Below are positions 22,737 through 40,466 of a DNA stretch of 56,250 nucleotides, piece by piece. The notes below the pieces were generated by a model that worked only from the letters and a program-made list of their open reading frames with translations, searched no databases and was not told where the DNA came from. The translations under genes and the position numbers were made by a program. Where the stretch lies: contig CACXNV010000005.1 in assembly GCA_902769185.1 (NCBI GenBank), positions 1-56,250 on the forward strand, given 5' to 3'. Every line of letters begins with the position of its first letter. Position 1 is the stretch's first letter. The stretch is from an uncultured Erysipelotrichaceae bacterium. GTDB lineage: Bacteria; Bacillota_I; Bacilli_A; RFN20; CAG-826.

Positions 22737-24272
22737 ATGAAATATTCTGGAAAATTAGAATTAACTTGGGTTAATAAAGACAAAGATGTTGCTGACTTGA
22801 TGAAAATCGAGCCAAGAATTCTTGTTGAAGATAGAACAAAATCTTACGGTGATCCCAAATCTGAAAATGTATTAATTCATGGCGATAATTTAGTTGCTCT
22901 AAAAGCCTTAGAAAGAGATTATGCAGGAAAGATAAAATGCATCTATATTGATCCTCCTTATAATACAGGTTCAGCTTTTGAGCACTATGATGACAATGTC
23001 GAACATAGTACTTGGCTTTCTTTAATGTATGCTAGATTACACCTATTAAGAAATTTACTTACTGATGATGGGACTATTTGGATAAGCATCGATGCTGATG
23101 AAAGTCATTATTTAAAAGTACTTTGCGACGAAATATTTGGCAGAAAAAACTTTATTGATGAAATTGTGTGGCAAAGAGCTTATGCCCCAATCAATTTAAA
23201 AAAGACGCTTTCTAGGGCACATGATACTATCCTTGTGTATGCAAAGAATTATTCAATGGATTTTAAATTAAATACTTTACCTAGAAGCGGTGAAGCATTA
23301 TCGAGATATAAAAACCCAGACAACGATCCAAGAGGATTATGGCAGTCCGATAATCTTTGGTGCGGGCCTAGAGTTGAAGCAAATGTATTTGAAATTATCA
23401 CACCGTCTGGCAGGAGCATTTTTCCTCCTGACGGATATTCTTCTCGATTGTCTAAAGAACGTTTTGAAGAATATGTACGAGATAATCGCATTTGGTTTGG
23501 CCCAAAGGGAGATAACACGCCTCGTATTAAAAGATTTTTATCAGAAGTCAAATCTGGTGTTGTTGCAATGACTTGGTGGACTAGAGAGGAAATTGGAGAC
23601 AATCAGGAGGCCAAGCGTGAAATAAAAGCTCTTGGATTGTCTGATAAACCTTTTGATACGCCGAAACCAGAACGCTTAATAGAAAGAATATTGACAATAG
23701 CAACTAACGAAGGTGATTTTGTTTTAGATTCTTTTTTGGGATCTGGGACAACAATAGCTGTCGCACATAAAATGAAACGCAAATGGATTGGAATTGAATT
23801 AATGGACACGGCATATTCATATTGCAAGCCTAGAATGGATTTAATTATCAACGGAAACGAACCTGGCGGAGTTACTAAATCTACTGGTTGGATTTCAGGT
23901 GGTGGCTACAAGTTTTATGAGTTGGCCGATCCGTTATTGGTGAAAAATCCAATTATTCCAGTTTATGATGTTAATCCTACTTATACATTTGAAATGGTTT
24001 GTGAGGCTATTTGTAAGATTGAATCTTTCACTTATGCCCCAGCTGATTTCTATCATGGTTATTCGACAGAAAATAGATTTATCCACGTCACACTTGAATA
24101 CGTAAATGGCGAATATGTGTCTGATTTAGCATCAAAGCTAAGTGATAAACAATCACTAATTATCTACTGCTTGAAACATCAGCGAGATATAGCTTTGCCA
24201 GACAATATTGAAATAAGACGTATCCCTAAAGATATACAAGAGAAATGCAACTTTGAAAGTGAGAAGGAATAG
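22737..24272 (+). CDS. N6-adenine DNA methyltransferase, type III Mod-like (beta class)
   Basis: 511 residues. The catalytic DPPYNTG (residues 72-78) precedes the SAM-binding FLGSGTT near 330, the beta-class order of type III Mod subunits. There is a target-recognition stretch between them and a conserved start (VLIHGDNLVALKAL). AGGAGGG precedes the ATG. The next gene encodes the matching Res-like subunit, so this looks like a type III modification enzyme. It takes the position of DrmMI of class 1 DISARM, but that enzyme is, as I recall, of a different adenine methylase family, so I leave the symbol empty. Confidence 0.85.
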   Translation: MKYSGKLELTWVNKDKDVADLMKIEPRILVEDRTKSYGDPKSENVLIHGDNLVALKALERDYAGKIKCIYIDPPYNTGSAFEHYDDNVEHSTWLSLMYARLHLLRNLLTDDGTIWISIDADESHYLKVLCDEIFGRKNFIDEIVWQRAYAPINLKKTLSRAHDTILVYAKNYSMDFKLNTLPRSGEALSRYKNPDNDPRGLWQSDNLWCGPRVEANVFEIITPSGRSIFPPDGYSSRLSKERFEEYVRDNRIWFGPKGDNTPRIKRFLSEVKSGVVAMTWWTREEIGDNQEAKREIKALGLSDKPFDTPKPERLIERILTIATNEGDFVLDSFLGSGTTIAVAHKMKRKWIGIELMDTAYSYCKPRMDLIINGNEPGGVTKSTGWISGGGYKFYELADPLLVKNPIIPVYDVNPTYTFEMVCEAICKIESFTYAPADFYHGYSTENRFIHVTLEYVNGEYVSDLASKLSDKQSLIIYCLKHQRDIALPDNIEIRRIPKDIQEKCNFESEKE

Positions 24273-24273
24273 T

Positions 24274-26907
24274 ATGAATAAGGTAGTTAAATATGTCTCT
24301 CAAGCTATGAGCTTCAGAGATCCGCAAGAAGAAGCTTTAGACTATTTTTCACAAATTTCTGACTTATCAGATTTCAAAAAACAATCCAAAGAGCAATTAG
24401 AAAAGATTGCTAGTGAAAACTGTGAAGGTCACCATACAATCAAAGTTGATAGTCATTTTGACTTTGTATCATATTGCTTCTCAATGGCAACAGGTATTGG
24501 TAAAACCCGTTTAATGGGTGGCTTAATTTATTATCTTTGGAAGACAAAAGGATATAAGCACTTCTTCATACTTGCTCCAGGAAACACAATATACGACAAG
24601 CTTAGAAGAGAATCTCAAATTGGCCATCCTAAATATTTATTTAAAGGTCTTGAATCTGAGATGGGTAATCCTAGAATTTGGGATGGAGAGAACTATACAA
24701 CATATAAAACCACTAGTGGAGTTCAAATGCTTGCTTCTGGTAAAGAATCTGAAGTTGAAATCTTTATCTTTAACATTGGAAAGATTTTTAATCGTGGTGA
24801 CGTGCAATTCAATTTCCACGCATATAAGGAAACGTTAGGATCTTCGTTCGCGGATATTTTATCTGGGTTTGATGACTTAGTCATTTGCATGGATGAGGCT
24901 CATAGATATTATGCTCCAGCTTCAATGAAAGCCATCAACTACTTAAAACCAGTATTGGGATTAGAATTTACAGCCACCCCAAAAGACGTTAATAAAAATA
25001 TTATCTACACATATGGCATCACTAAAGGTGCTGGCAAGTATCTGAAGATTCCAGTTGTAATGGGCAGAACGAATATGGCTGGATATGATGAAAAAGCCAT
25101 TGAAGAAATGAAGATTAGAGATGGTTTAGACTTACACGAAAAGAGAAAGAAAGCCATCCTTGAGTATGTTTCTAATCATCAAGATGAAGGTGTTAAATAC
25201 GTTAAGCCTATTGTTCTTATTGCATGTAAAGACACTAATCATGCTAAAGAAGTAAGAACTTTTATTGATAGTGATGAGTTTAGAGGCGGAAAATACAAAG
25301 GAAAAGTTATTGAAGTTCACTCAAATATGACTGGAGAAGAATCTGAAGAAAACATTAAGTTACTTCTATCTGTTGAAAAGAATGATAACCCAGTTGAAAT
25401 CATCCTCCATGTATATAAGCTCAAAGAAGGATGGGATGTTAATAACTTATTTACAATCATTCCTCTTAATGCCGCAAAGAGTGATATATTAGCTCTTCAA
25501 ACAATTGGTAGAGGCCTTAGATTACCATTTGGACATATAACCGGTGATGAAACAATTGATACATTAGATATTGTCGCTCATGAGCATTACCGAGAATTGG
25601 TTAATGAAATTAAAGCTGGCGGAGTGTTTAGAACAAGAAACTTGGATGACGAGCCAGTTGAAGAAACCGAAAGTGTTAAACTTGAATGTAATTTGTTTGA
25701 TGACGATGAATTGGAAAGATTAGAAGAAGCATCTAAAAACGCTGGCTTCAGTCTCTCTTCAGATTTAGACGACCCAGATGTACAAAATAAGTTATATGAG
25801 GAATATCAAAAAACTTATGGACCTGTCCCAGTCAAACAAAAGAAGGTAGAAAAAGACGATGGTCAAATGTCGCTGTTCGATGATTTGCCAGAGGAAGAAG
25901 AGAAGTTAAATATACAACAAGAAACTCCAAAAGTTGAACCAAAGATTAAAACCAAAGAGGAATTCATAAACAAAGTCAAAGCGTACCAAGTGAAAGCTAT
26001 TCAGGTGCCAAGAATATCTATATTCGCTTCCACACAAAGACAAATGAGTGTTTTTGTTGTAGTAAGGAATATTAAGGACTTTGATGTTGAAGCGTCAAAA
26101 ATAGAAAGATATGACGCAATTAATCAAAAGCTTATTGATTCAATCCCTGCTGAGGTTTTATTAGACCCAAATCCAGTAAATACGTTGGCGTGTATGCTTT
26201 TTGATGCTGTCGAAGAATTTAGTTCAGAAGATGCTCAATATATCTTAAAGCTAGTTAATGATTATTTGGCTTTGATTGATGGCGATGAAGAATATAAGAA
26301 ACAAGTTGTTAGAAGATATGCGTCATTAATCGTTAATGATATTGCTAATCAAATTAGAGAACATTGTGTTTCAACAACGACTCACACCTATAAGATTCAA
26401 AAAGACTTCATATGTTTTAGACAAGTTTCCAAAACAATTAAGAGCGGTGGCTCTTTGTTGTTCAAAAACCCATTCAACGATAAACAAAATATCAAAAAAT
26501 ACATTTTTAATGGATATAAGAAATCTTATTATCCTGAGAATGCTTTTGATAGTGACCCTGAAAGAGTATTCTCCATTATTCTTGAGGAAGATGGAAAAGT
26601 TGTTAGATGGATTAAACCTCCTTTAAATCAGCTAGGTATTTTCTGGAGAGCTGGTGAGCAATATAACCCTGATTTCTTAGTTGAAACAGAAACCGATAAG
26701 TATATGGTTGAAGTCAAAGCTAAAAAAGACGTTAAAAATGAAGAAGTTTTAGAAAAAGCGAGAGTGGGCATTAGATGGTGCAGTTATGCATCTACTTGTG
26801 ACCCAGATGGCAAAAAATGGCATTACTTCATGGTTGCGGACGAAAATATTAAAGAAGGGAATTCCCTTAAGTACACTTTAGGCTTAGCGGAATCTGTAGG
26901 TGAATAA
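24274..26907 (+). CDS. Type III Res-like helicase-nuclease
   Basis: 877 residues from ATG 24274 (GAAGGA upstream), starting 1 bp after the methyltransferase stop. Walker A MATGIGKTRL near 75, DEAH motif CMDEAHRYY near 205, FTATP, and motif VI LQTIGRGLRLP form an SF2 helicase of the type III Res class. The C-terminus carries a PD-(D/E)XK nuclease (NPDFLV...YMVEVKAKKD near 800-820). With the adjacent Mod-like protein it would recognise and cut unmodified DNA after ATP-driven diffusion. Not a standard DISARM component. Confidence 0.82.
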   Translation: MNKVVKYVSQAMSFRDPQEEALDYFSQISDLSDFKKQSKEQLEKIASENCEGHHTIKVDSHFDFVSYCFSMATGIGKTRLMGGLIYYLWKTKGYKHFFILAPGNTIYDKLRRESQIGHPKYLFKGLESEMGNPRIWDGENYTTYKTTSGVQMLASGKESEVEIFIFNIGKIFNRGDVQFNFHAYKETLGSSFADILSGFDDLVICMDEAHRYYAPASMKAINYLKPVLGLEFTATPKDVNKNIIYTYGITKGAGKYLKIPVVMGRTNMAGYDEKAIEEMKIRDGLDLHEKRKKAILEYVSNHQDEGVKYVKPIVLIACKDTNHAKEVRTFIDSDEFRGGKYKGKVIEVHSNMTGEESEENIKLLLSVEKNDNPVEIILHVYKLKEGWDVNNLFTIIPLNAAKSDILALQTIGRGLRLPFGHITGDETIDTLDIVAHEHYRELVNEIKAGGVFRTRNLDDEPVEETESVKLECNLFDDDELERLEEASKNAGFSLSSDLDDPDVQNKLYEEYQKTYGPVPVKQKKVEKDDGQMSLFDDLPEEEEKLNIQQETPKVEPKIKTKEEFINKVKAYQVKAIQVPRISIFASTQRQMSVFVVVRNIKDFDVEASKIERYDAINQKLIDSIPAEVLLDPNPVNTLACMLFDAVEEFSSEDAQYILKLVNDYLALIDGDEEYKKQVVRRYASLIVNDIANQIREHCVSTTTHTYKIQKDFICFRQVSKTIKSGGSLLFKNPFNDKQNIKKYIFNGYKKSYYPENAFDSDPERVFSIILEEDGKVVRWIKPPLNQLGIFWRAGEQYNPDFLVETETDKYMVEVKAKKDVKNEEVLEKARVGIRWCSYASTCDPDGKKWHYFMVADENIKEGNSLKYTLGLAESVGE

Positions 26908-26908
26908 T

Positions 26909-29900
26909 ATGGCAGATAGGTTTCAAGAAGCTAAGCTAAGAGACAACATTGTTGATTTTGTCAAAAAGGATTTAGTTGGTCCTGCGGATGAAAATGAAAT
27001 TTTAAATGAAAGCCCAATGTTTGCATACTTAACTGGGATGATTTATCCAAAAGGTGCAGCATACGGTGAAGCTTCAGAACAAGAAATTGGTTTTGATGTG
27101 GATATGGAAGAAGCTGCCGATTACAGCCAAGACGACGATGAGGATGATGGTCAAGCAATGACGACCACGAAATTCAAACAACAAACATCTATTGGCGCAA
27201 CGTTCTATTTGAAAAAAACAGCTAAGTCTTTCAACATCAAAGTTAATTGGGGTGACTATACACTTTTAGATGAAGTTGAAAACGATTCAGAAGAAGTTGA
27301 CCTTTTGGAATATGCTGAAGAGGAAGACGTTAAAAAGAAAAAGACTCATAGAAGATATCTAAGATATCCTCAAAGCGAGACAATTAAGATTGAAATGGAT
27401 AAAATACCATCCAGCAACGAATTCCTTCTTAAAACAGATTCTAAACTCAAATTAAAGTTAAATATTTTTGGATTAACTAATGAATATCAAGTGGTGAGCG
27501 CATTTATTTCTAATGAAAGAAGCGTTGGAGATGATGCGACTGATAGTGTTATGTTCCAAGTCGAATTAGAGATTATTGCTGATGAAGACTTATTCTATGC
27601 GGAAAACATCTGTAGAGATTCCTTAGCAGAAAGTGAATATTTATATTCACAAAGGCCGGTATTTGCTAGAGGCAGAGGGTGTGCTGTAACTTGGAATAAC
27701 CTTACCAACGAAGAAACTAATTACATAAGAACAACATTTATTCCTGAACATGAAATATGCGGAGTGAGTGCATCGTTTAAAGAATTTCAACCAGATTATT
27801 TTTCAACACTATTCTTTGCAAAAAACTCTAATAAAGAAAAGACTTTAGAAAGACTTCGTGGATTAACTTCTTCATATGAAGAATGGATTAATAAACTAAG
27901 AAGTGATCCTAAGATGTCTGATAAAGATTTTTACAATAAAGTCGGCAGAGATGTTATTGAAAAATGTTCGAATGCTTTAAAACGAATGAAAGAAGGCATT
28001 AATATTCTTGAAAGAAACGCCACGGCTTTTAGTGCATTCACGTTTATGAATGTGTGCATGCGTTTGCAGAAGAATATTGCCGCATATTCAAAGAAACATG
28101 GTCAAGGGATTGAATGTAATTTTGGAGAATTTACGGATACATCTAAACCAGAAAACGATATGACATGGTATCCGTTCCAAATTGCCTTTATTTTAATGAA
28201 TATCAATTCGATTGTTTATCCTGAATGTGAAGATAGAAATGTTGTCGATTTACTTTACTTCCCAACTGGTGGCGGAAAGACTGAAGCTTATTTAGGTCTT
28301 ATTGCTTTTACTATTGCTCACAGAAGAATGTCTAGAAGTCCGAATGATCAATACAATAAAGATGGTGGGGTTACAGCCTTCTTGCGTTACACATTAAGAT
28401 TATTGACCACTCAACAAAGAGATAGAATTACCAGAATGATTGTTGCTGCCGAATACTTAAGACGCAAAAAACCAGATGTTTTAGGTAGTGAACCGATTTC
28501 AATCGGCTTCTGGGTTGGTGGAGATGTTACTCCAAACTCTTACAAAGATTTTATGGGTGATGACATTCCAAGAATAAAAGAAGCTAAACGTAAAATATCT
28601 AATCAGTTATTAACGTGTCCATTTTGTGGAAGGCCGTTGGAGCAAGAATCTTTTAGATATAATGACACTACCGAGGAAATAGAAATTTATTGTGAAGATA
28701 AAAATTGTATCTTTTACAAATATCCAGATAATCCAGACGATATGATTCCTATGCCAATATACTTGATAGATGAACAAATCTATAGGCGTTGTCCAACTGT
28801 TGTTTTGGCCACTGTTGATAAATTTGCAAGGCTTCCATGGGATCCAAAGACAAATGCATTGTTTGGACGCGTTAACAAAAAATGCACAAGACATGGATAT
28901 GTTGCGATTGGTGAATATCATCCGTACAAGCACCTGAAAACAGATCTTTATCCAGATGCCCATTGTGTTGGAGTTAAGATGTTTGCTCCTCCAGAATTAA
29001 TTGTCCAAGACGAGTTACATTTAATTACTGGTCCTCTAGGAACAATTTATGGTGGGTATGAAACATTAATCGAGGATCTGTGTTCTTATGAATTGAATGG
29101 CAAAAAAATCAAACCAAAATATGTTTGTTCAACTGCAACAATCAAGAATGCTGATGAACAGATTAAATGTCTCTATGGCAGGAAGAAAACTAACATTTTT
29201 CCATCAAGAGGTTTACTTATTGGTGATTCATATTTTATCAGGGACGAATCGCTGAAATCAAAACCGTTTAGAAAGTATGTTGGCGTTTGTGCACATGGTC
29301 AATCCATGAAAACAACTCTTTTGAGAACATATGCTGCCATTTTGCAATATACCTTTGAATTATCAAAAGACCCTGCAAATCTTAACTGTATTGACCCTTA
29401 TTTCTCTCTAGTTGGTTATTTCAACTCAATTCGTGAACTTGGTGGTACAGTACGTTTGTTACAAGACGACATTCCAAAGAGAATGAACCGAATTAGAAAT
29501 AGATATAAGTTTGAAAAAGTCCGACCTCTATTTGCTGCAAAGCAAGAGGAAATCACGTCTCGTATAAATTCGAGAGATATTGCTAGGAAACTTCAAAAGC
29601 TTGAAACCCCTTTTGACAATAAAGAGTGTATTGATACTGCTGTTGCAACCAATATGATTGCGGTTGGCATGGACGTTGATAGACTTGGTTTGATGACTGT
29701 TATGGGTCAGCCAAAACTTAATTCCGAATATATTCAAGCAACATCTCGTATCGGAAGGAAACATCCAGGGCTAGTTTTTACTATCTATAATCCATATCGT
29801 CCTAGAGACCTTTCTCATTATGAGAATTTCACCGGTTATCATTTACAACTTTATAGATATGTTGAAGGCACAACCGCAACTCCTTTCTCAGCTAGAGCAA

Positions 29901-30280
29901 GAGATAGATTTATTCATGCGATTATCATTGCTGTTTTAAGAATGAAATATTCAAATATGGCTGGAAACCCAGAGAAGATTTTGGAGCTTAGTGATGATGA
30001 ACTAAATGCATTTACCAAGATTATTGAGGAGAGAATCCAATTAATTAATCCTAGAGGCAAGGATGAAGCTATGAGGGAGATTAGAGTCTTCTTGGCTAAT
30101 TGGAAGAGAATTGCTTCTACGAAGAAAATGAAATATTCTGGTGAACCTGATTCAACCACTGAAGTTCTTATGGTTGGCTTTGAGGAAAAGAATAGATTAG
30201 GGCAATCTAAGAGTACATTAAACTCAATGCGTGAAGTTGAGAGTGGCTCTGAACTTTATTACGATGAGGGGGTTATCTAA
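26909..30280 (+). CDS. drmA: DISARM helicase DrmA
   Basis: 1123 residues from ATG 26909 (GGTGA upstream; a GTG at 26900 is in frame). The N-terminal 430 residues are acidic and unrecognised. Walker A YFPTGGGKTEAYLG lies near 450, a Cys4 zinc motif (CPFCGRPL...CEDKNC) near 570-600, the motif II region VQDELHLITGPLG near 700, and the second lobe with ATNMIAVGMDVDRLG and QATSRIGR near 915-950. The size and the DELHLI/GPLG signature match DrmA. DrmA-DrmB is the core complex that loads on unmodified, 5'-overhang phage DNA. Confidence 0.88.
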   Translation: MADRFQEAKLRDNIVDFVKKDLVGPADENEILNESPMFAYLTGMIYPKGAAYGEASEQEIGFDVDMEEAADYSQDDDEDDGQAMTTTKFKQQTSIGATFYLKKTAKSFNIKVNWGDYTLLDEVENDSEEVDLLEYAEEEDVKKKKTHRRYLRYPQSETIKIEMDKIPSSNEFLLKTDSKLKLKLNIFGLTNEYQVVSAFISNERSVGDDATDSVMFQVELEIIADEDLFYAENICRDSLAESEYLYSQRPVFARGRGCAVTWNNLTNEETNYIRTTFIPEHEICGVSASFKEFQPDYFSTLFFAKNSNKEKTLERLRGLTSSYEEWINKLRSDPKMSDKDFYNKVGRDVIEKCSNALKRMKEGINILERNATAFSAFTFMNVCMRLQKNIAAYSKKHGQGIECNFGEFTDTSKPENDMTWYPFQIAFILMNINSIVYPECEDRNVVDLLYFPTGGGKTEAYLGLIAFTIAHRRMSRSPNDQYNKDGGVTAFLRYTLRLLTTQQRDRITRMIVAAEYLRRKKPDVLGSEPISIGFWVGGDVTPNSYKDFMGDDIPRIKEAKRKISNQLLTCPFCGRPLEQESFRYNDTTEEIEIYCEDKNCIFYKYPDNPDDMIPMPIYLIDEQIYRRCPTVVLATVDKFARLPWDPKTNALFGRVNKKCTRHGYVAIGEYHPYKHLKTDLYPDAHCVGVKMFAPPELIVQDELHLITGPLGTIYGGYETLIEDLCSYELNGKKIKPKYVCSTATIKNADEQIKCLYGRKKTNIFPSRGLLIGDSYFIRDESLKSKPFRKYVGVCAHGQSMKTTLLRTYAAILQYTFELSKDPANLNCIDPYFSLVGYFNSIRELGGTVRLLQDDIPKRMNRIRNRYKFEKVRPLFAAKQEEITSRINSRDIARKLQKLETPFDNKECIDTAVATNMIAVGMDVDRLGLMTVMGQPKLNSEYIQATSRIGRKHPGLVFTIYNPYRPRDLSHYENFTGYHLQLYRYVEGTTATPFSARARDRFIHAIIIAVLRMKYSNMAGNPEKILELSDDELNAFTKIIEERIQLINPRGKDEAMREIRVFLANWKRIASTKKMKYSGEPDSTTEVLMVGFEEKNRLGQSKSTLNSMREVESGSELYYDEGVI

Positions 30281-32055
30281 TGGCTAAGAAAAGATTTTTT
30301 AATCCGGATAGGATTGGTGAAATAAGACCTGGTCAAATTATTACTACTTTTGGTCCGGGAGCTATTACTGATGCAAGAAAAGATTCTGTTACCGTTCTTG
30401 ATATTAATTATTGGGGGAGAAACGGAACAAAGATTTTTGATACACGTCTAGCCTCTTATTTAAATGTCGACTATTTTAAATGTCCACCTACGGATGGATC
30501 AAACGATGTTCCAGTAGTTTCATTCCCAAAAGTACACGTTTGTTCTAATCCAAAATGTGGAAGAATTTTTAATATAGAAGAACATTTTGATAGGGACAAC
30601 TATTTGAGAATGGGCCCTAGATGCCCAGATTGCGGAGCTCCAGCATACCCTTCTAGATTTATTATGATGTGTGAATGTGGACACTTAGATGATTTTCCTT
30701 GGAGAGAATGGGTTCATGGCGGAAAGACTGATTGTGAAGGCCATTTAAGACTAAAATCTACCGGTTTGACATCAACTTTAGCTGATTTAAGAATTGAATG
30801 CGATGAATGTGGCGCAAAGAAAACCATGAGTGGTGCCATGCAAGAAGACAATTTCTTAAGATATAAATGCACTGGACGTCATCCATTTAGACCTAATACT
30901 CAATACGAAAGATGTAACAAGACAATGAGAGCTTCTCAAAGAGGTGCTTCAAATGTCTATTTCCCAGTTATTAGAAGTGCTTTATCCATTCCACCTTGGA
31001 TTGATCCGCTTTTTAACTTAATTGATGAGCATTACCGTGACATCATAAATTATCGAATTGATTTTGGAGAAGCTGGTGTTCATAAAATTTATGAAAGATT
31101 CTTTGCTGATAAATATAGTGAGACTGAGTTTAACGAAGCACTTCGTAAAAAAGATTTAAATATTCAAGAATACATGATGATTAAAGAAATGGAGTACAAA
31201 GCTTTTACCCATCACAACTCACCAATCTATTCTAAAGAAGAATATCGCAAATACTTTATGGCTGAAGAAGAACCTGTTTCTGCTGCGTTGTCTCCTTATT
31301 TCTCAAGAATTATTCAAATCAATAGACTTAGAGAAATCATGGTCTTGCTTGGATTCACTAGATTAGATGCACCAGACCCAGATGCTGATGAGCAAAAGAA
31401 TATTGTCTATCTCACCAAAGAAAGTGGTGGAGAAAGATGGCTTCCTGGCGTTGAAATAAATGGCGAGGGTATCTTTATTGAATTTAATCATCACACTGTT
31501 GAAAAATGGCTTTCTAATAGTAGCGTGGCTAAGCTTTCAAAGATTTACAGCGATGGCTATGTTAGCTATTGTGAATCTAGAGGATGGACAAGTAAAAATA
31601 TCAAGGATGGCAAGTATGTTTTGCTTCATACATTTGCTCACTTATTAATAAAAGAAATGTCTCTTTCTTCTGGTTATTCAACTTCCGCAATTAAAGAAAG
31701 GATTTATTCTGGTGATAAGATGTGCGGCATTTTGCTGTACACAGGTAGCTCAGATAAAGAAGGCTCCCTTGGCGGTTTGGTTGAACTTGGTAAAGAGGAA
31801 AAATTACTCCCAATTATTAAAGCTGCTCTTGAAAATGCTTTAGTTTGTACAAGTGACCCAGAATGTATGTCGCATACTCCGACTATTGATGACATAAATG
31901 GTGCATCTTGCCATGCTTGTACAATGATTTCAGAAACAGCTTGTGAAAATGGCAATAGATTATTGGATAGAGGTTTTGTTGTTCCGTTACCTCAAAAAGA
32001 AGATACTGCGTATTTTAAGGAGCTTGTTAGAGATTTATGTGGGATAGAGATTTAA
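30280..32055 (+). CDS. drmB: DISARM DUF1998 protein DrmB
   Basis: 591 residues, start overlapping the drmA stop (TAATG). The N-terminal part has several Cys pairs (CSNPKCGRIF, CPDCGAPAYP, CECGHLDDF, CDECGAKK) expected to bind zinc. The DUF1998 part follows with LLHTFAHLLIKEMSLSSGYSTSAIKERIY near 445-475, then the conserved CHACTMISETACENGNRLLDR near 550-570. DrmB binds DrmA and helps open its DNA channel. The overlap order drmA-drmB-drmC is the DISARM core. Confidence 0.88.
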   Translation: MAKKRFFNPDRIGEIRPGQIITTFGPGAITDARKDSVTVLDINYWGRNGTKIFDTRLASYLNVDYFKCPPTDGSNDVPVVSFPKVHVCSNPKCGRIFNIEEHFDRDNYLRMGPRCPDCGAPAYPSRFIMMCECGHLDDFPWREWVHGGKTDCEGHLRLKSTGLTSTLADLRIECDECGAKKTMSGAMQEDNFLRYKCTGRHPFRPNTQYERCNKTMRASQRGASNVYFPVIRSALSIPPWIDPLFNLIDEHYRDIINYRIDFGEAGVHKIYERFFADKYSETEFNEALRKKDLNIQEYMMIKEMEYKAFTHHNSPIYSKEEYRKYFMAEEEPVSAALSPYFSRIIQINRLREIMVLLGFTRLDAPDPDADEQKNIVYLTKESGGERWLPGVEINGEGIFIEFNHHTVEKWLSNSSVAKLSKIYSDGYVSYCESRGWTSKNIKDGKYVLLHTFAHLLIKEMSLSSGYSTSAIKERIYSGDKMCGILLYTGSSDKEGSLGGLVELGKEEKLLPIIKAALENALVCTSDPECMSHTPTIDDINGASCHACTMISETACENGNRLLDRGFVVPLPQKEDTAYFKELVRDLCGIEI

Positions 32056-32729
32056 AGGCTCAAATACTAGCTAATTTTATCATTACAGATATTGAAAAGC
32101 TTGTTGCTAATAACGACCCAAACGCTATGCAACATCCTTTGGATGTGCTGCATGAAACATTTCCAAATTTAAGCGATGGAGAATTAGTCGACTTACTAAA
32201 TCTTATTGCTCATGTTTATAACATGAAGCACACTGAAAAAGTTGACTTAGTTGCCACTTTACCATCACATTACAAAACACAAGCGTTGCCAACGATTTCT
32301 GTCATTTCAGACTTAATTAATTCAGCTATGCAGATAATTATTATTACTGGCTATTCTATTTCTGACTATGCCGAAGATTTGCTTTTGAAGATTATTGATA
32401 AAAGCAGAAGTGGAGTCATGGTAAAAATATTTGTTAATAGATTTGAACCAAGCGAGTCTCCAATAATTAATAAACTTGATTTATACAAAGGACGTTATCT
32501 TGAAATTTACAATTATGTGGATCGTGAAGATGATATGGCGGCCTTACATGCAAAGACAATTTCAGTAGATGATACAAAATCTTTAATTACATCTGCTAAC
32601 TTATCTTTTCATGGATTAGAGAAGAATATTGAACTAGGATGTTTAATTGATTCATCAGATTACGCTAAGAAGCTTCATTTGCTTTTTAGTGACCTTATTG
32701 AAACAAGAAAAGTAAAAAAAGTTTACTAA
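32037..32729 (+). CDS. drmC: DISARM phospholipase-D-like protein DrmC
   Basis: 230 residues, overlapping drmB by 19 bp. One HKD motif (LHAKTISVDDTKSLITSANLS near 170-190) followed by GLEKNIELG, typical of PLD-family nucleases that work as dimers. The N-terminal 90 residues are helical. In known systems DrmC is a PLD protein that is not always essential to protection. Last gene of the coupled operon. Confidence 0.88.
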   Translation: MWDRDLKAQILANFIITDIEKLVANNDPNAMQHPLDVLHETFPNLSDGELVDLLNLIAHVYNMKHTEKVDLVATLPSHYKTQALPTISVISDLINSAMQIIIITGYSISDYAEDLLLKIIDKSRSGVMVKIFVNRFEPSESPIINKLDLYKGRYLEIYNYVDREDDMAALHAKTISVDDTKSLITSANLSFHGLEKNIELGCLIDSSDYAKKLHLLFSDLIETRKVKKVY

Positions 32730-32764: not shown

Positions 32765-32820
32765 AATAACATTTGATCCCCAGATCTTCGTGTGATCTAA
32801 TATTAAAGAGGTTAGATGTT

Positions 32821-34944
32821 ATGGATTTATCGAATTACTTCTTGGCAGCACCAAGTGATTTGCACCTTTTAGGCAGGGAAAAAGAACTTCAATTATTAAA
32901 AGTTTATGCCTTCAATGCGTACTTTAATGCTGATCCTTTATACACAGATAATGTGAATAATGGATGCACTTATAGAAGAGATGCTCATGGTGGAATCGAT
33001 GGTGTTTTTATTAACGAAACTTTAGAAGAAAACACAATTGAATGTCTTCATTCTTATTTTGTTGGTGAAGGACCATTTGTTTTGAACGAAGTCTTCAATT
33101 TCTTGAACAGGATTTCAGCTGAATTAGATGATGTTAGAAAAGGACGTTTTGTTAATAACAAAGAAGCCGATGATTTACTAAGAGAGTATTTAGATGAATC
33201 TGAAAACAAAAAGGTAATCATTAGAGTTATTACTGATTATTCTTGTGATCCAACTGAAAAATATAATTTAAATAAGAAAATCGAAGCTTTCAGTGTTAGC
33301 GTTAAAAACCTTGAAGTTTCAGCCGTGGTTGCTTTTGGCGATGACGTAAAAGCTGTTATCGAGAGTAATAGAGCACCATTTGATTGGGTTGAAGAAGGAA
33401 AAGTAGTTCTTGATGAAGCTGACAACTTCTTGAGATTTAAAGACCATAGTATCGTTTGCAATATCTCAGCAAAATCATTAAAAAAATTATGGGAAGATGA
33501 AGGTGATAGAGGTTTATTAGCCATGAACCTTCGTTATTACATTAAATCTACTAATATCGATAATAAAATTGAAGAATCTATCTTATTTGATGGAAAAGAC
33601 TTCTGGTATTTAAACAACGGTATCATTATTGTTTGCAACGATTATAAAGTTGTCGGAAACGAAGTTTGGTTAAAACAATTCTCAATCGTCAATGGTGGCC
33701 AAACATCTAGGATGATTGGAACTATACCGTTCAATGATGACTTCTTTATTAGCTGTAAAATTATTAAAAATGTTTTTGAAACAGCGCAAGAGAAAAACTT
33801 GTTTATCTCTAAAGTTGCCGAAGCATCCAACACGCAAAAACCAATTAAGGCAAAAGATATCATCGCTAACAGAATAGAACAAAGGAATCTCAAATCCTTA
33901 ATGCAAGAAAATGGAGTATTCATTGAAATCAAGCGTGGTGAAAAATGTAATCATGAGATTTATCCAGAAGCGTGGCAACGCACCAAAAACAACGAGTTAG
34001 CTCAAGACCTATATTCATTTGTATTTATGGAACCAGGCCCAGCTCGTAACAGTGTTTCTTCTATGCTTTCAAACGAAGAGAAATATAATGTCATTTTTAG
34101 AGAACATGAATATTCATTTGATTTCTTGCGTGACGTCTTATTCTTAGAAAAGGCTTATAAGGAATATCAAAAGAAAATTAACAAAGACAAAGATGACTAT
34201 GGTGATAGTTCAATTAAGAAAGGCCTTGTTAAAAACGGCTTATGGTATTGCTTAGCAACAATTGGCTATGTTTTAAAACTCTATTACAATAAAGAATATA
34301 GAAATAACATGTATCAATATCGTAATCAGGATTTAAAATATTCGCTCTATTCACCAGAACTTGCATTTATGCATGGTTTCATTGATAGAGAATACTCTTA
34401 CAAAGAATTTAGAGATTCTGCTTTTGAATTATTCGATTTAGTTTTCGCTCAGTTAATTGTCAATCAATTCAAACTTGCTCGTGATAGTAGCCCTTCGCTT
34501 GCTTATTCAAACTGGACAAAATCAAACACTGGCTTCAATGGAATTAGGTCGATGATTAACTTAATTACATTCGACAATAAACAAGAGTTCTTAATCAACG
34601 CTATTGCTAAGTACTTCGTTAAGATAGACGAGGATACTATGAATAAGAACATCGATAGATATGTTGATTACTGCAAAAAGAATAAGAAGATTAAAGCTAA
34701 AGATAATCTTGGCAATGAATTATCTGAAAACGATGAAGCATTAAGAAACGAATTGATGGTCTTTAGACTTAATTATTCGACTCAAAAGCATATTCCAGAA
34801 AGAAATATCTATACAGATAAGATGATAGATAGAATGGTAATAGAAAAGCCTGTTACTGATATCGAGCTGAAAAAGATTGTTAGTACAAATACTGTATACT
34901 TCTGTGGAAAGAAAATTCTAGAAATCATTATCAAATATATTTAG
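32821..34944 (+). CDS. AIPR family (abortive infection phage resistance) protein
   Basis: 707 residues from ATG 32821 with AAAGAGG upstream; upstream in-frame TTG codons are less likely. The AIPR core is clear: FWYLNNGIIIVCNDY near residue 260 and FSIVNGGQTSRMIG near 290, followed by the conserved EASNTQKPIKAKDII and WQRTKNNELAQDLYSF. AIPR proteins often accompany restriction-modification and other defence loci; their activity is not settled. Separated from drmC by a palindrome, so possibly regulated on its own. Confidence 0.85.
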   Translation: MDLSNYFLAAPSDLHLLGREKELQLLKVYAFNAYFNADPLYTDNVNNGCTYRRDAHGGIDGVFINETLEENTIECLHSYFVGEGPFVLNEVFNFLNRISAELDDVRKGRFVNNKEADDLLREYLDESENKKVIIRVITDYSCDPTEKYNLNKKIEAFSVSVKNLEVSAVVAFGDDVKAVIESNRAPFDWVEEGKVVLDEADNFLRFKDHSIVCNISAKSLKKLWEDEGDRGLLAMNLRYYIKSTNIDNKIEESILFDGKDFWYLNNGIIIVCNDYKVVGNEVWLKQFSIVNGGQTSRMIGTIPFNDDFFISCKIIKNVFETAQEKNLFISKVAEASNTQKPIKAKDIIANRIEQRNLKSLMQENGVFIEIKRGEKCNHEIYPEAWQRTKNNELAQDLYSFVFMEPGPARNSVSSMLSNEEKYNVIFREHEYSFDFLRDVLFLEKAYKEYQKKINKDKDDYGDSSIKKGLVKNGLWYCLATIGYVLKLYYNKEYRNNMYQYRNQDLKYSLYSPELAFMHGFIDREYSYKEFRDSAFELFDLVFAQLIVNQFKLARDSSPSLAYSNWTKSNTGFNGIRSMINLITFDNKQEFLINAIAKYFVKIDEDTMNKNIDRYVDYCKKNKKIKAKDNLGNELSENDEALRNELMVFRLNYSTQKHIPERNIYTDKMIDRMVIEKPVTDIELKKIVSTNTVYFCGKKILEIIIKYI

Positions 34945-35534: not shown

Positions 35535-36872
35535 ATGTTTAAGAAATATTACATAAATCCAAATAGTGAATTTAATAAATCGTTAATCCTTTCTTTAATT
35601 GAACCTGGAGAAAGAGGTTTTAAGATATCAGGATTATCTGAAGGAGAATATAAAGACTTATTTTCTATTAGAAACATTAGATTTATTAATAATGAAGTAG
35701 ATTTTAAAAGTATTACTACTAAAGTAGAAGTTATCTATCTAGATGACTATTTACATCTAAAAGCCTTAGTTTTATCCTCTAGTAGTGGTTTCTTCTATCT
35801 ATTTAAGATAGATCATCAAAATGAACATAAATTAAACATTAATCAAAAATATATTTCTACTCATCTGGATGATTTACTTTTAGATTTTGAATCTCACTCT
35901 AAAAGTAAGGGAAAGATTAATTATTATGGAGAAGGTGATTCTTCTTTAATAGAGAATATTAATTATTTTGAAAATCTATATAGTAATGATATTAAAGATA
36001 ATATCGATTTAGATTCAGATATCTATAGACTATTATTTGAGTCTAATAACTTATTCACTGTTGATTTTATCTATTTATGTAATAACCACTCGATAAGGAT
36101 AACTAATAGTAATGAGTTATCTAATAAAGTATTAAATCTAGAAATGATGAGAAAGAATAATTCTCATCGTAAAGACTGCTTATTTATTAATGCAGTTAGT
36201 AAAGATATTGAATACTTTATATTCACTTATAAAGAACACTTTATCAATCATTATTATCTATTTAAGAATCTTGGTAATGATGAATTCTTATTTATTAAAG
36301 AAGATATCTCTTTTAATAGATTATTAGCGTCAAGCGAATTAAAAGATATTAAATATAAAAAGGCTAGTAATTTAGCCTCTAAAGAGTTCGCTAAAAAGAA
36401 ATATGATAACTTCTATAATGAATATACTTCTTTTGAAGCTGAGGAAGAATTTGAAACTGATATCATTAAAGAATTCAATATCTTAGAGTTTGGCAAGATC
36501 AAAGCCAAAGCCAAACTCCTTGAATTCATTAATGAGTTTAAATCTATCTATAAGGCTAAACACTATAAGAGTGATATAGGAGTGACCTTCCACGGTCATA
36601 CCCGTATATTAGAAAGAATTGGTCAACTTGAAGATAGTGAAATGCTAATACTTGCTAAAGTTGCTTATGAAGAAGGGAAGAACTCTGTTAATTATTTTGA
36701 GAGTGATCCTAAGATGTTTAAGTTTTTACAATATCAACAAAATAAGAAAAGAGGTAAGACTCTTAGATTATATAAAGATTATCTATTCTTCTATTCTATG
36801 GAACCACCTCATGATTTAGTGACTTGCTTTCCGTTCAATAGTAGTTTTGAGATGTATTCAAAGAATAACTAG
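35535..36872 (+). CDS. Unknown 445-aa protein with RelE/BECR-like C-terminus
   Basis: Most of the protein is an unrecognised Asp/Asn/Leu-rich region. The last 100 residues (VTFHGHTRILERIGQ, helix, KRGKTLRLYKDYLFFYSMEPPHDLVTCFPFN) have the layout of DUF4258/RelE-type toxin folds: H-x3-R-x2-ER followed by strands and a final LVT-hydrophobic strand. This suggests a nuclease or toxin-like tip but no catalytic proof. The last 168 bp are duplicated at 38441-38608, beyond the AlbA_2 gene. Confidence 0.5.
   Translation: MFKKYYINPNSEFNKSLILSLIEPGERGFKISGLSEGEYKDLFSIRNIRFINNEVDFKSITTKVEVIYLDDYLHLKALVLSSSSGFFYLFKIDHQNEHKLNINQKYISTHLDDLLLDFESHSKSKGKINYYGEGDSSLIENINYFENLYSNDIKDNIDLDSDIYRLLFESNNLFTVDFIYLCNNHSIRITNSNELSNKVLNLEMMRKNNSHRKDCLFINAVSKDIEYFIFTYKEHFINHYYLFKNLGNDEFLFIKEDISFNRLLASSELKDIKYKKASNLASKEFAKKKYDNFYNEYTSFEAEEEFETDIIKEFNILEFGKIKAKAKLLEFINEFKSIYKAKHYKSDIGVTFHGHTRILERIGQLEDSEMLILAKVAYEEGKNSVNYFESDPKMFKFLQYQQNKKRGKTLRLYKDYLFFYSMEPPHDLVTCFPFNSSFEMYSKNN
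36705..36872 (+). repeat. 170-bp direct repeat, copy 1 (gene 3' end)
   Basis: The 3' end of the gene at 35535 matches 38441-38608 at roughly 90 percent, including the stop codon; similarity ends right after CTAG. The copies flank a 1.57-kb segment with the AlbA_2 gene. A short third match (ggaacacctcatgatttag) lies at 39506-39524. Confidence 0.85.
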
Positions 36873-36890
36873 GATTTTTTCTTAATTAGA

Positions 36891-36924
36891 TGTCCAAAAA
36901 TATGCAATTTTTAACTATTCAATT
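36891..36924 (+). repeat. Short direct repeat, copy 1 (TGTCcAAAAAtATGCAATTTTT...)
   Basis: The 34 bp starting TGTCCAAAAATATGCAA match 40419-40452 with about three differences. The two lie 3.5 kb apart in the same orientation, bracketing the AlbA_2, type III TA and AbiEi genes. Confidence 0.7.
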
Positions 36925-36981: not shown

Positions 36982-37027
36982 TTGTATCAAAATTATTGTT
37001 TGATGATACAATAAATGATACAATAAA
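36982..37027 (+). promoter_or_regulatory. Probable autoregulatory operator of the AlbA_2 gene
   Basis: TTGTATCA (36982-36989) is inverted relative to two TGATACAATAAA units at 37004-37015 and 37016-37027. TTGTAT could serve as -35 with GATACA (37005-37010) as -10 at 17-bp spacing, so the repeats overlap the promoter. Identical units recur inside the gene (38150-38185). Confidence 0.55.
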
Positions 37028-37043
37028 TTTGCGAGGTAAAAAA

Positions 37044-38378
37044 ATGGAAAATCGTGAATCAGAAACAGTCGAATTTAAAAAAAGTACATCAGAATTGAAA
37101 CAAGGAATTATATCTCTATCTTCCATGCTCAATAAGTCAGGTAGTGGAGTTTTGTATTTTGGGGTATTAAACGATTCGACAGTAATGGGTCAACAAATAG
37201 GAAAAGACACTACACACGATATTTCTGTTGAAGTTAAATGTCACATTAAGCCTGAAGTTATTCCAATAGTCGAATTAATAAATATTGGGGATAAGCAAAT
37301 TATAAAAGTATCTGTTGCTGGTGATAAGAAGCCTTATTCCGCTTACGGAAGATACTACATTAGAAGCGACGACGAAGATATATTGATGAGCAATGAAGTA
37401 CTTGAGCAGTTTTTCAAAGATGACTCTATTGATTATTCAAAATGGGAAAATGCAATTACTGAATGGACAATTGATGATATTGATGAAGAGAGATTAATTA
37501 AATATTTTAATGAAGCCAACGAATGTGGAAGATTAAATTATGTTTATAAAGACAGCATTGATGCTTTAACAAAATTAGGTCTTTATAAGAATAATCATTT
37601 AAATAACGCAGGATACTACCTTTTTTCAAAAAATAAACCACTCAAATTGAAATTAGCTGTTTTTAACACTGATGAAAGATTATCTTTTTCTGACATCAAA
37701 TTATTTGAAGGTAATATATTTGATTGCATTGAAGAAGGAATTCGCTATATTTCTGAAAGAATGAGATGGAATGCTAAGATTGTCGGGAGCAAGAGAATAG
37801 AAACTCCAGAGATACCGTTAGAAGCAATTAGAGAAATTGTTGTTAATAGTTTCGCTCATATGAAGGTGAATCCAGCTATTTTAAACGAAATCTATTTGAC
37901 TCCTACCAAAATAAAAATCAGTAATCCTGGTAATATAGCAAAAAATATTGATCCGATTGAATTCGCAGCAGGAAAACAAAGTCCGATATTAAGGAACCCA
38001 CTGATTGATATGACTTTATATAAAAATAATACTATTGACTCTTTTGCTACAGGCTTTGAAAGAACTTTCAAACTCTGCAAGGAAGCAGGGATAAAATGGG
38101 AATATGAAAATACTAAAACGTCATTCAGCTTTACATTTATTAGATCAAATGATACAACAAATGATACAACAAATGATACAATAAAAAATCGCCAAAGCGA
38201 TATTATTAGTCTAATTAAAAAAACTCCTTCAATAACAAGAAAAGAGATAGCACAGACATTAAACATTTCAGAGCCAACGGTTGCTCGAGATTTAAAAATG
38301 TTGCAAGAAATTGGTGCCATCAAAAGAAATGGGCCAAACAAAACAGGCTATTGGGAGATACTAAAAGATGGCAAATAA
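37044..38378 (+). CDS. AlbA_2/Schlafen-like ATP-binding transcriptional regulator
   Basis: 444 residues from ATG 37044 (GAGG 8 bp upstream). The N-terminus is an AlbA_2 domain (ESETVEFKKSTSELKQGIISLSSMLNKSGSGVLYFGVLND, then YRRYYIRSDDE-type strand). The middle is the HATPase_c_4 domain (PLEAIREIVVNSFAHM, IYLTPTKIKISNPGN, RNPLI). The C-terminus is a winged helix (ISLIKKTPSITRKEIAQTLNISEPTVARDLKMLQEIGAIKRNG). A linker of three NDT repeats joins the last two. Related proteins are putative regulators; some lie in defence regions. Overlaps a truncated gene at its 3' end. Confidence 0.8.
   Translation: MENRESETVEFKKSTSELKQGIISLSSMLNKSGSGVLYFGVLNDSTVMGQQIGKDTTHDISVEVKCHIKPEVIPIVELINIGDKQIIKVSVAGDKKPYSAYGRYYIRSDDEDILMSNEVLEQFFKDDSIDYSKWENAITEWTIDDIDEERLIKYFNEANECGRLNYVYKDSIDALTKLGLYKNNHLNNAGYYLFSKNKPLKLKLAVFNTDERLSFSDIKLFEGNIFDCIEEGIRYISERMRWNAKIVGSKRIETPEIPLEAIREIVVNSFAHMKVNPAILNEIYLTPTKIKISNPGNIAKNIDPIEFAAGKQSPILRNPLIDMTLYKNNTIDSFATGFERTFKLCKEAGIKWEYENTKTSFSFTFIRSNDTTNDTTNDTIKNRQSDIISLIKKTPSITRKEIAQTLNISEPTVARDLKMLQEIGAIKRNGPNKTGYWEILKDGK
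38150..38185 (+). repeat. Three 12-bp repeats (TGATACAACAAA) inside the AlbA_2 gene
   Basis: TGATACAA occurs at 38150, 38162 and 38174, 12 bp apart, followed by CAAA, CAAA and TAAA. They encode NDT-T/NDT-T/NDT-I and are the same unit as the operator repeats at 37004 and 37016. Confidence 0.85.
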
Positions 38379-38448
38379 AGAATTTAAAAACATTGAAGAA
38401 TTTATTGAAGGATTCACTAGAAATGGTCCTACTCCTGAGCGATCCTAA
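38368..38448 (+). pseudogene. Truncated second gene of the AlbA_2 operon
   Basis: The ATG overlaps the AlbA_2 stop (ATGGCAAATAA), a typical operon overlap. The frame reads MANKEFKNIEEFIEGFTRNG and ends after 26 codons where the duplicated 3' segment begins. The rest of the gene is missing, so it was cut by the recombination that made the duplication. Confidence 0.5.
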
Positions 38449-38608
38449 GATGTTTAAGTTCCTTCAATATCAACAGAATAAGAAAAGAGGTAAGACTCTT
38501 AGATTATATAAAGATTGTCTATTCTTCTATTCTATGGAACCACCTCATGATTTAGTGACCTGTTTCCCATTCAATAGTAGCTTTGAGATGTATTCAAAGA
38601 ATAACTAG
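38438..38608 (+). pseudogene. 170-bp direct repeat, copy 2 (orphan gene 3' end)
   Basis: A copy of the last 56 codons of the gene at 35535 with the stop, without the rest of the gene. Differences are mostly silent (AAA/AAG, TTT/TTC), which suggests the copy came from a related functional gene, or diverged under selection before it was orphaned. Confidence 0.7.
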
Positions 38609-38812
38609 TCCCAATATCACGAAAAAAAGCTGATAAAAAACAAAGAAATATTACTTATTATTTATATAATAGTACAACATATGTAACCTCTACCCTATAT
38701 ATAAATAATAAGTAAATTTTTCGTATAAAAATTTTGCTTGTAAACAGTATGATTTGTCTTTTACTATAAGTATGTCATAACGCGGATTAAACGCATCAGC
38801 TGTAAATATTTG

Positions 38813-38843
38813 TTGAAAAATGCCGACCTGTAATGAATAATAT
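38813..38843 (+). promoter_or_regulatory. Putative promoter of the type III TA operon
   Basis: TTGAAA (38813-38818) and TAATAT (38838-38843) with a 19-bp spacer; transcription would begin about 15 bp before the first 46-bp repeat. Confidence 0.4.
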
Positions 38844-38864
38844 AGTTGTAGCAGGAAACTGTTA

Positions 38865-38963
38865 CAAAAATATGTGTCGCTCCTCGGTATGCGTCTCACA
38901 AATGGCCGAGCAAAAATATGTGTCGCTCCTCGGTATGCGTCTCACAAATGGCCGAGTTTTTTT
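38865..38963 (+). ncRNA. Type III antitoxin RNA candidate: two 46-bp tandem repeats
   Basis: Two identical 46-bp repeats (38865-38910 and 38911-38956) each end in a CTCGG...CCGAG inverted repeat; the second is followed by seven T. In type III systems the antitoxin is an RNA of tandem pseudoknot-forming repeats, ending in a leaky terminator before the toxin. Known CptI RNAs have about two repeats of about 45 nt, which fits well. Identity rests on repeat size, number, position and the toxin downstream. Confidence 0.65.
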
Positions 38964-38969
38964 ATTAAT

Positions 38970-39470
38970 ATGAACATTGTTGTCAAACACTTCTATTTTA
39001 TAAAAGATGAATTCTACAAATTTGCAGAAGATCCTTTGCTAATGGAGAATAAAGAAAACGGAAACAAACGACCATGCTTTTTAGCAATAAAAGATGATAA
39101 GAATATTATTTGGTTAATTCCTGTTACTTCAAAATATGAAAAGTTCAAAAATATTTATAATTATAAAATTAGAAAATATGGTTCGTGTGAAACAATTGTT
39201 CTTGGACAACTATTAGGAAAAGATTGTGCTTTTCTTATTCAAAATATGTTCCCGATAATTGAAGATTACATTGAAAGCGAATATGTTCAATCTTCAAATA
39301 ATGTTCCAGTTTCTATTTCTGAACCATTAGCTAATAATATTGTTTCCAAATATAAAAAAGTTTTGGCCTTGGTTAGAGCAGGAGTGAAAGGCTTAGTGTT
39401 CCCAGATATTTTAAGAATAGAAAATAACTTAAAAACAAAATTAGAAACAAACAATATGTTAAAACATTAA
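38970..39470 (+). CDS. ToxN/CptN/AbiQ-like type III toxin endoribonuclease
   Basis: 166 residues from ATG 38970; the frame continues upstream through the repeats but that part is RNA. HFYFIKDEFYKFAEDPLL followed by KRPCFLAI, NIIWLIPVTSKYEKF, and ILGQLLGKDCAFLIQNMFPI resembles the compact beta-barrel of ToxN/CptN toxins: strand-helix start, RPYxxx strand, hydrophobic P(F/V)(R/T)S strand, then the C-terminal helices. These toxins cut their own antitoxin RNA and cell mRNA and cause abortive phage infection. Family assignment is from pattern and context, not an alignment. Confidence 0.6.
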   Translation: MNIVVKHFYFIKDEFYKFAEDPLLMENKENGNKRPCFLAIKDDKNIIWLIPVTSKYEKFKNIYNYKIRKYGSCETIVLGQLLGKDCAFLIQNMFPIIEDYIESEYVQSSNNVPVSISEPLANNIVSKYKKVLALVRAGVKGLVFPDILRIENNLKTKLETNNMLKH

Positions 39471-39520
39471 TCGAATAGGCGACAGAAAAGTGCCGTTAAT
39501 TTGTGGGAACACCTCATGAT

Positions 39521-40255
39521 TTAGGATATTTCTTCTGGCATGCTTCTTTCTACTGACACCATTAGTTTCCATTTATTTACTAATTTGGCAAAACCTACTT
39601 TTGATTCAAAGTATTGGATTTTATTGCCTGACTTAGACAAACATAATTGATAGAAGGACTCTGGCACTCTATTACCAAAGTGTTTTTCGAATAGATAGCC
39701 AACTTTTTGATATAGATACGCCTTATCATAGAATTCAAGCATCTTGATAACTTTTTCTAAATGCAAATCTCTACAAGCATCTAGAGCGTATTCTATTTCT
39801 TCTAATCCACCTGCATAGCCAGGATTATCGATTGAATCAATAATCGCGCGTTCTAATGAAACCACTCTAATTCCATTCTCTTTCATATGATCAATTATTT
39901 CTAAATTGCACATGCTCATTTTTGAAGAGTAGACAATGTTTTCAAACTCCAAATCATTCACATACACATGCGTTAGGTATGTGAAACGTGACACAAATAC
40001 TTGAGTTGTTAGACCATAATATTCAAGTGCCTCATGATAGGAAAAATATGAGTCGTTAAACAAGCGAGATGCTATTTGAAATCTAGAAACATATATCCCA
40101 CCTGTTGAACGATCCACTAAGGCATATAAGCCTTTCTTTATTTTCTTTATTTCTCCTCTTTTTGTGGCGCGATTCACGAATGCATAAAAGTTTTTTATAT
40201 TTGGATACAATTCTTCAACATCTTCATAAGTAAATAATTCTGGTAATATTTTCAT
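39521..40255 (-). CDS. AbiEi-like antitoxin/regulator (orphan)
   Basis: 244 residues from ATG 40255. The N-terminal winged helix (LFTYEDVEELYPNIKNFYAFVNRATKRGEIKKIKKGLYALVDR) and following SRFQIASRLFNDSYFSYHEALEYYGLTTQ match AbiEi, the DNA-binding antitoxin of type IV systems. The central SLERAIIDSIDNPGYAGGLEEIEYALD is also typical. Normally the nucleotidyltransferase toxin AbiEii follows directly; here the stop codon lies in a repeat scar and no AbiEii is present. It converges on the type III toxin gene. Confidence 0.7.
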   Translation of the reverse strand: MKILPELFTYEDVEELYPNIKNFYAFVNRATKRGEIKKIKKGLYALVDRSTGGIYVSRFQIASRLFNDSYFSYHEALEYYGLTTQVFVSRFTYLTHVYVNDLEFENIVYSSKMSMCNLEIIDHMKENGIRVVSLERAIIDSIDNPGYAGGLEEIEYALDACRDLHLEKVIKMLEFYDKAYLYQKVGYLFEKHFGNRVPESFYQLCLSKSGNKIQYFESKVGFAKLVNKWKLMVSVERSMPEEIS

Positions 40256-40385
40256 ACCACAATTTAAGCACAACTCTGCAGATATGTAAAGTTATACTGA
40301 GAATTTGGCATATTTAACGTTTGAATAATTATTGATATTTATAAGATGTAGATAAGGCAAAGGCCACCATAATTATCTATTTGAA

Positions 40386-40466
40386 TGTCGAAATATATGC
40401 AAATTTCATTAAAACAGGTGTCGAAAAACATGCAATTTTTAACTATTCAATAGTCCAAAAACATGC
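40386..40466 (+). repeat. Repeat family A (TGTCGAAAAACATGCAA-like), three units
   Basis: TGTCGAAATATATGCAAA (40386), TGTCGAAAAACATGCAAT (40419) and AGTCCAAAAACATGC (40452) lie 33 bp apart. The second is the partner of 36891-36924. Begins the long gene-free stretch 40256-40874. Confidence 0.7.

Follow-up and report, generated by a model that had tools for sequence, protein, structure and literature searches.

A CptIN type III toxin-antitoxin locus in which the last antitoxin pseudoknot probably doubles as the terminator

A 56,250-nt stretch of DNA from an uncultured Erysipelotrichaceae bacterium, hereafter the window, carries a CptIN type III toxin-antitoxin locus whose antitoxin and terminator are probably fused. 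A first-pass annotation of the sequence had stressed the toxin-antitoxin call; the terminator is the more unusual part. The repeats described there, two identical 46-bp tandem copies closing with CTCGG...CCGAG, were recovered by TRF (38865-38956, period 46, 2.0 copies, 100% match; its score ranks second in the window) and by a separate repeat search. Both copies close with CTCGGT...GCCGAG, and 6 bp (ATTAAT) separate the T7 run behind them from the ATG of a 166-aa ORF, again as had been described. The features are collected in Table 1.

Table 1. Features of the locus, its surroundings and related loci. Positions refer to the window unless a locus is named.
Feature	Position	Strand	Remarks
Restriction-enzyme-like 884-aa protein	24253-26907		just before the DISARM genes
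DISARM drmA, drmB, drmC	26900-32729
AIPR/AbiU-like gene	32773-34944		after the DISARM genes
Schlafen/AlbA_2 protein	36996-38378
Candidate sigma-70 promoter, TTGAAA-17-AATAAT	38813..38841	+	10/12 matches; placement fits the downstream leader hairpin
5' leader hairpin, UUGUAGCAG-GAAA-CUGUUACAA	38846..38867	+	-11.0 kcal/mol, z -6.0
CptI antitoxin repeat 1	38865..38910	+	46 nt; model match E=1.5e-10
Repeat 1 pseudoknot	S1 38876-38880/38891-38895, S2 38883-38888/38905-38910	+	both stems covary
Repeat 1 L2	38896-38904	+	UCACAAAUG
CAAAAA processing-type sequence	directly 3' of repeat 1	+
CptI antitoxin repeat 2	38911..38956	+	same as repeat 1 over all 46 nt; model match E=7.8e-11
Repeat 2 pseudoknot	S1 38922-38926/38937-38941, S2 38929-38934/38951-38956	+	S2 doubles as putative terminator stem
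T7 run	38957..38963	+	putative intrinsic terminator tail; abuts S2 of repeat 2
cptN	38970..39470	+	166-aa CptIN-family toxin, without Shine-Dalgarno
AbiEi-like antitoxin gene	39521-40273	-	PADLOC 6.8e-57
Stand-alone CptI mini-genes of genus g27	L163 5712-6930; L164 6476-6640; L162 6239-6275; L165 2211-2250
Loci with the fused layout			window, L002, L003, L004, L006, L101=L019, L107=L020, L111

Families of this kind, CptIN among them, are delimited by toxin sequence (PMC4627078). The protein, which had been called ToxN/CptN-like, scored 186.1 bits against the NCBIfam equivalog for CptIN toxins (NF047359, cut-off 90) and matched CptN of Eubacterium rectale (4RMO) in phmmer with E=1e-22 (residues 6-154); no match for it was found in Pfam or by PADLOC. 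An AlphaFold model (pLDDT 90, pTM 0.85) compared with the PDB gave 4RMO as the top match (E=6.8e-12, TM 0.79/0.84), AbiQ (4GLK) as the second and then MazF/CcdB folds, so that the family-model and structure comparisons suggested in the first-pass annotation both led to CptN. The active site of CptN comprises [Ser]-[Ser/Thr]-[Arg], Tyr104 and Asp81/Ser85 (PMC4627078). T53-S54-K55 of the window toxin aligns where the E. rectale protein has S-S-R, a lysine at the third position being common among relatives, and Y105 aligns with the scissile-base tyrosine (Tyr104). Ser85 is replaced by Cys86, and Asp81 falls in a gap, without a direct counterpart. Sequence and modelled fold together support assignment to the CptN family. 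The type III systems ToxIN and AbiQ resemble the window locus in having a Kid-like RNase fold and an upstream repeat RNA antitoxin, but their toxins belong to another sequence family, their repeats are 34-36 nt long and their terminator is separate (PMC5086642, PMC8860590).

The CptIN locus of E. rectale (4RMO, PMC4627078) has, besides a homologous toxin, two tandem repeats of ~45 nt; the window likewise has 2.0 copies of 46 nt directly 5' of the toxin, in line with the repeat number and length that had been recognized as those of CptIN. The CptI_Er repeat, taken from the primer table of PMC4627078, reads ACCAC-UG-ACCGAU-AU-GUGGU-AUAUAAAUG-GUCGGG and aligns without gaps with the window repeat, GUCGC-UC-CUCGGU-AU-GCGUC-UCACAAAUG-GCCGAG, with equal stem and loop lengths. 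Both sequences fit an H-type pseudoknot in which S1 has 5 bp and S2 has 5-6 bp, while L2 is 9 nt long, A-rich and ends in AAAUG. The S1 and S2 stems of the crystal were imposed on 17 aligned repeats, most of which came from the window's relatives; 94% of cells paired. Double changes numbered 36 as compared with 11.7 in shuffled alignments, and the covariation score was 0.596, against 0.285 in shuffles and 0.03-0.16 when partners were slid by 1-3 columns. A covariance model of the repeat matched only the two window copies in the whole genome; no family in Rfam release 15 recognized CptI in these loci. The alignment thus supports the window repeat as a CptI H-type pseudoknot, and the toxin family model, the 4RMO match, the fold, and the geometry and covariation of the pseudoknot identify the locus as CptIN.

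Type III loci ordinarily carry a separate Rho-independent hairpin between repeats and toxin, and surveys require it (PMC5086642, PMC8860590). The window lacks this element: a standard scan for hairpin terminators (loop 3-8) across 38600-39600 found none, and S2 of repeat 2, with a 16-nt loop and -6.3 kcal/mol, is the only stem that adjoins the T-run. The locus is nevertheless filed as CptIN, because the hairpin describes operon layout whereas homology of toxin and antitoxin decides kinship. It differs from the E. rectale locus in its 46-nt unit, in its lack of a Shine-Dalgarno sequence, and in having U7 after the last repeat instead of a GA/AA processing motif and a separate hairpin. T7 occurs only nine times on the + strand of the 56,250 bases, so that the probability of one falling by chance right where the repeats stop is ~1.6e-4. 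As a statement about sequence, the earlier proposal that the last repeat itself supplies the terminator therefore holds. The S2 hairpin is far weaker than the separate terminators of other CptIN loci (mean -14.8 kcal/mol, n=59), which implies either that termination is leaky or that the full pseudoknot, or the CptN-bound pseudoknot, is required.

CptN relatives, mostly metagenome-assembled, were gathered from whole genomes, a genome-contig scan, viral contigs and plasmids, and their upstream regions were searched for CptI-like pseudoknots; counts of pseudoknots are approximate because the finder works by thresholds, and some Lachnospiraceae copies obvious on inspection escape it. Neither scanning IMG/VR for close relatives nor searching a phage collection at the protein level gave a match; a profile scan of viral contigs yielded nine CptIN loci, none with a fused terminator. 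Nearly all loci of Clostridia, other Bacilli, Negativicutes, Planococcaceae, Bacillaceae, Fusobacteria, viral contigs and plasmids had the ordinary layout, in which the pseudoknots, as a rule two or three, are followed by a strong hairpin of its own and usually by a Shine-Dalgarno sequence. The fused layout was found in eight loci, all of the window's order and spread over five genera (g1, g9, g17, g18, g53) and two families; here two or three pseudoknots are present, and the last S2 runs straight into T6-7 in every case. This comparison supports a last-repeat terminator common to eight loci of the window's order and nearly no others, which bears out its description as unusual. We regard the fused layout as a new operon variant of known CptIN, one that the founding survey (Blower et al., 2012) may already mention.

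The toxin start also differs between the layouts. A Shine-Dalgarno sequence preceded the toxin in 61 of 68 ordinary loci as compared with one of eight fused loci (Fisher p=1e-5), and that one lies inside the pseudoknot. As 25 of the 32 long ORFs of the window have such a sequence, the organism evidently uses it. With the start codon 13 nt past the pseudoknot of repeat 2, and with ~7-15 nt between pseudoknot and ATG across the fused loci, within ribosome-footprint distance, it could be argued that there is no terminator at all, the T-run being an A/T spacer and the pseudoknot setting the toxin level by blocking ribosome entry at a start without a Shine-Dalgarno sequence. The weakness of the S2 hairpin would fit. 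We consider this quite improbable, given that T6-7 abuts S2 exactly in 8/8 loci despite the rarity of T7 on the strand, and that the mini-genes of genus g27, described below, end with S2 and a T-run without a close ORF start.

The A-rich processing motif was present 3' of the last repeat in 54 of 58 loci elsewhere and in none of the eight fused loci, a count that partly follows from choosing these loci by their T-run; 3' of their earlier repeats it was present in 8/9 cases. The last copy, lacking this motif, might have lost antitoxin function and serve as a terminator only, all antitoxin then coming from repeat 1, and the E. rectale toxin does contact the 3' end of its antitoxin, at G44/A45 (PMC4627078). 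Such a loss seems unlikely when the two copies in the window do not differ at any of their 46 nt and the last copies of the relatives retain S1 and an A-rich L2, neither of which would be required for termination alone. In one of them (L003_r3) a U-U mismatch of S1 has even given way to a pair, and in g27 no CptI units other than single U-tailed pseudoknots were seen close to the toxins. A special strengthening of S2 in fused last repeats was looked for and set aside: the difference is modest (-8.9 vs -7.0 elsewhere, p=0.008), and a gain from earlier to last repeat occurs in ordinary loci too, giving the idea weak support.

In genus g27 of the window's family (G066, G100), CptN-family toxins with a Shine-Dalgarno sequence of their own, unlike cptN of the window, have single CptI pseudoknots nearby. 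Each unit consists of a promoter-like sequence, a leader hairpin, one pseudoknot, and S2 with a T-run. The units resemble the window in that S2 leads directly into the T-run beside a CptN-family toxin, but they form no tandem array; they lie both upstream and downstream of the toxin, ~115-155 nt apart where serial. In 363 kb of shuffled sequence, no high-scoring pseudoknot followed by a T-run of this kind turned up. We propose these units as candidate single-repeat type III antitoxins. On the toxin tree, g27 forms its own clade (98/92), sister to a locus of ordinary layout (L009), and the eight fused loci are placed elsewhere; because the two lie apart, antitoxin and terminator were probably fused on at least two occasions. 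The eight fused loci fall in a 12-row clade together with four ordinary loci (L008, L061, L022, L122) rather than in a strict clade, a mixture that fits one gain with losses as well as several gains.

Upstream of the repeats, the first-pass annotation had placed a promoter. A TTGAAA/AATAAT pair is indeed present, but matches of this quality are not above chance in the window (7 vs 6.1 in shuffles), so that the promoter is only plausible. The leader hairpin lies directly 5' of repeat 1, its final 3 nt overlapping it. Leader hairpins, often with a GAAA-like loop, recur 5' of the first pseudoknot in CptIN loci (mean z -1.7, 72 loci) and possibly protect the 5' end.

The surroundings of the locus form a defence island, with DISARM close by; no AbiEii partner was noticed next to the AbiEi-like gene. 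The 3' end of a 445-aa gene is duplicated over 172 nt (94%), at 36701-36872 and 38437-38608, with a third copy of 28 nt after cptN (39497-39524), and a 36-nt direct repeat (92%; 36888-36923 and 40416-40451) flanks the whole AlbA_2-cptIN-abiEi segment. These sequences suggest traces of insertion or duplication. Together with the finding of a single locus in the genome and its absence from the 18 congeners searched, the small direct repeats could also point to the degenerate remains of a CptIN locus, tandemly duplicated, the structure being decayed or due to chance. This is very unlikely in view of an intact toxin ORF with conserved core residues, identical repeats, covarying stems and an architecture common to several genera.

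Further loci were seen in the course of the searches. G060 and G151 contain CptI repeats close to which no CptN ORF was seen (L174 2973, - strand; L175 2043-2120, + strand; L176 ~2196, - strand). The copy in G060 hardly differs from the window repeat and may be either a remnant or an orphan antitoxin protecting against such toxins. At L153 and L156 (G584:C1), a CptI pseudoknot is followed closely by a CptN-like frame with many stops, a decaying duplicate; another CptN-like copy lies ~two kilobases away. Three 42-nt repeats ending in T7 (L166 4591-4709, - strand) lie upstream of a distant CptN homologue and match Rfam RF02920 (Fusobacteriales-1 RNA), which suggests from sequence that this RNA is a type III antitoxin.

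We infer a working of the fused antitoxin-terminator that takes in termination, processing, RNase activity, neutralization and poor translation. Transcription would begin near 38848 and produce the leader hairpin followed by two identical 46-nt CptI pseudoknots; S2 of the second, with U7, would stop most transcripts, and antitoxin RNA would therefore exceed toxin mRNA. CptN, an RNase of the ToxN/Kid fold, would cleave the precursor at the A-rich stretch that precedes each pseudoknot, and the product would keep CptN inactive. With U7 in place of the processing motif at the 3' end, one canonical and one U-tailed unit would arise per transcript. Rare read-through transcripts would carry the toxin ORF, and toxin synthesis from them would be poor owing to the start so close behind the pseudoknot without a Shine-Dalgarno sequence.

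A bolder proposal, which we put forward as speculation and think unlikely to hold in full, is that the last CptI pseudoknot combines the roles of antitoxin, terminator and translational operator. S2 alone being too weak to terminate well, free CptN, binding the nascent pseudoknot or the one that lies 13 nt ahead of the cptN start codon, would shut off further toxin expression, a direct feedback with the toxin acting as the ligand of a riboswitch-like terminator. In g27 this would have gone further, to stand-alone antitoxin genes whose 3' end is made by termination, not cleavage. The HMP-PP (thiS) riboswitch, to judge by the title of its description (PMC6478431), likewise embeds a ligand-binding RNA fold in a terminator; it is a metabolite riboswitch, non-homologous and not an antitoxin. 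AbiF/RCd22 (PMC12373285) has, as is proposed for the window, a repeated-motif RNA antitoxin, a terminator before the toxin ORF and direct neutralization of the toxin by RNA, but its Abi_2/AbiF toxin and RNA motif are unrelated and its terminator is an ordinary, separate one.

Loci like that of the window, and still more the g27 mini-genes, would escape searches whose rule is tandem repeats plus a separate hairpin (PMC5086642, PMC8860590). If the antitoxin is the terminator, then RNA folding, transcription stop and toxin expression would be mechanically coupled, which would offer a simple, testable model for the setting of the antitoxin:toxin ratio in a type III system and would suggest that cleavage by the toxin is dispensable for the 3' end of some antitoxin units.
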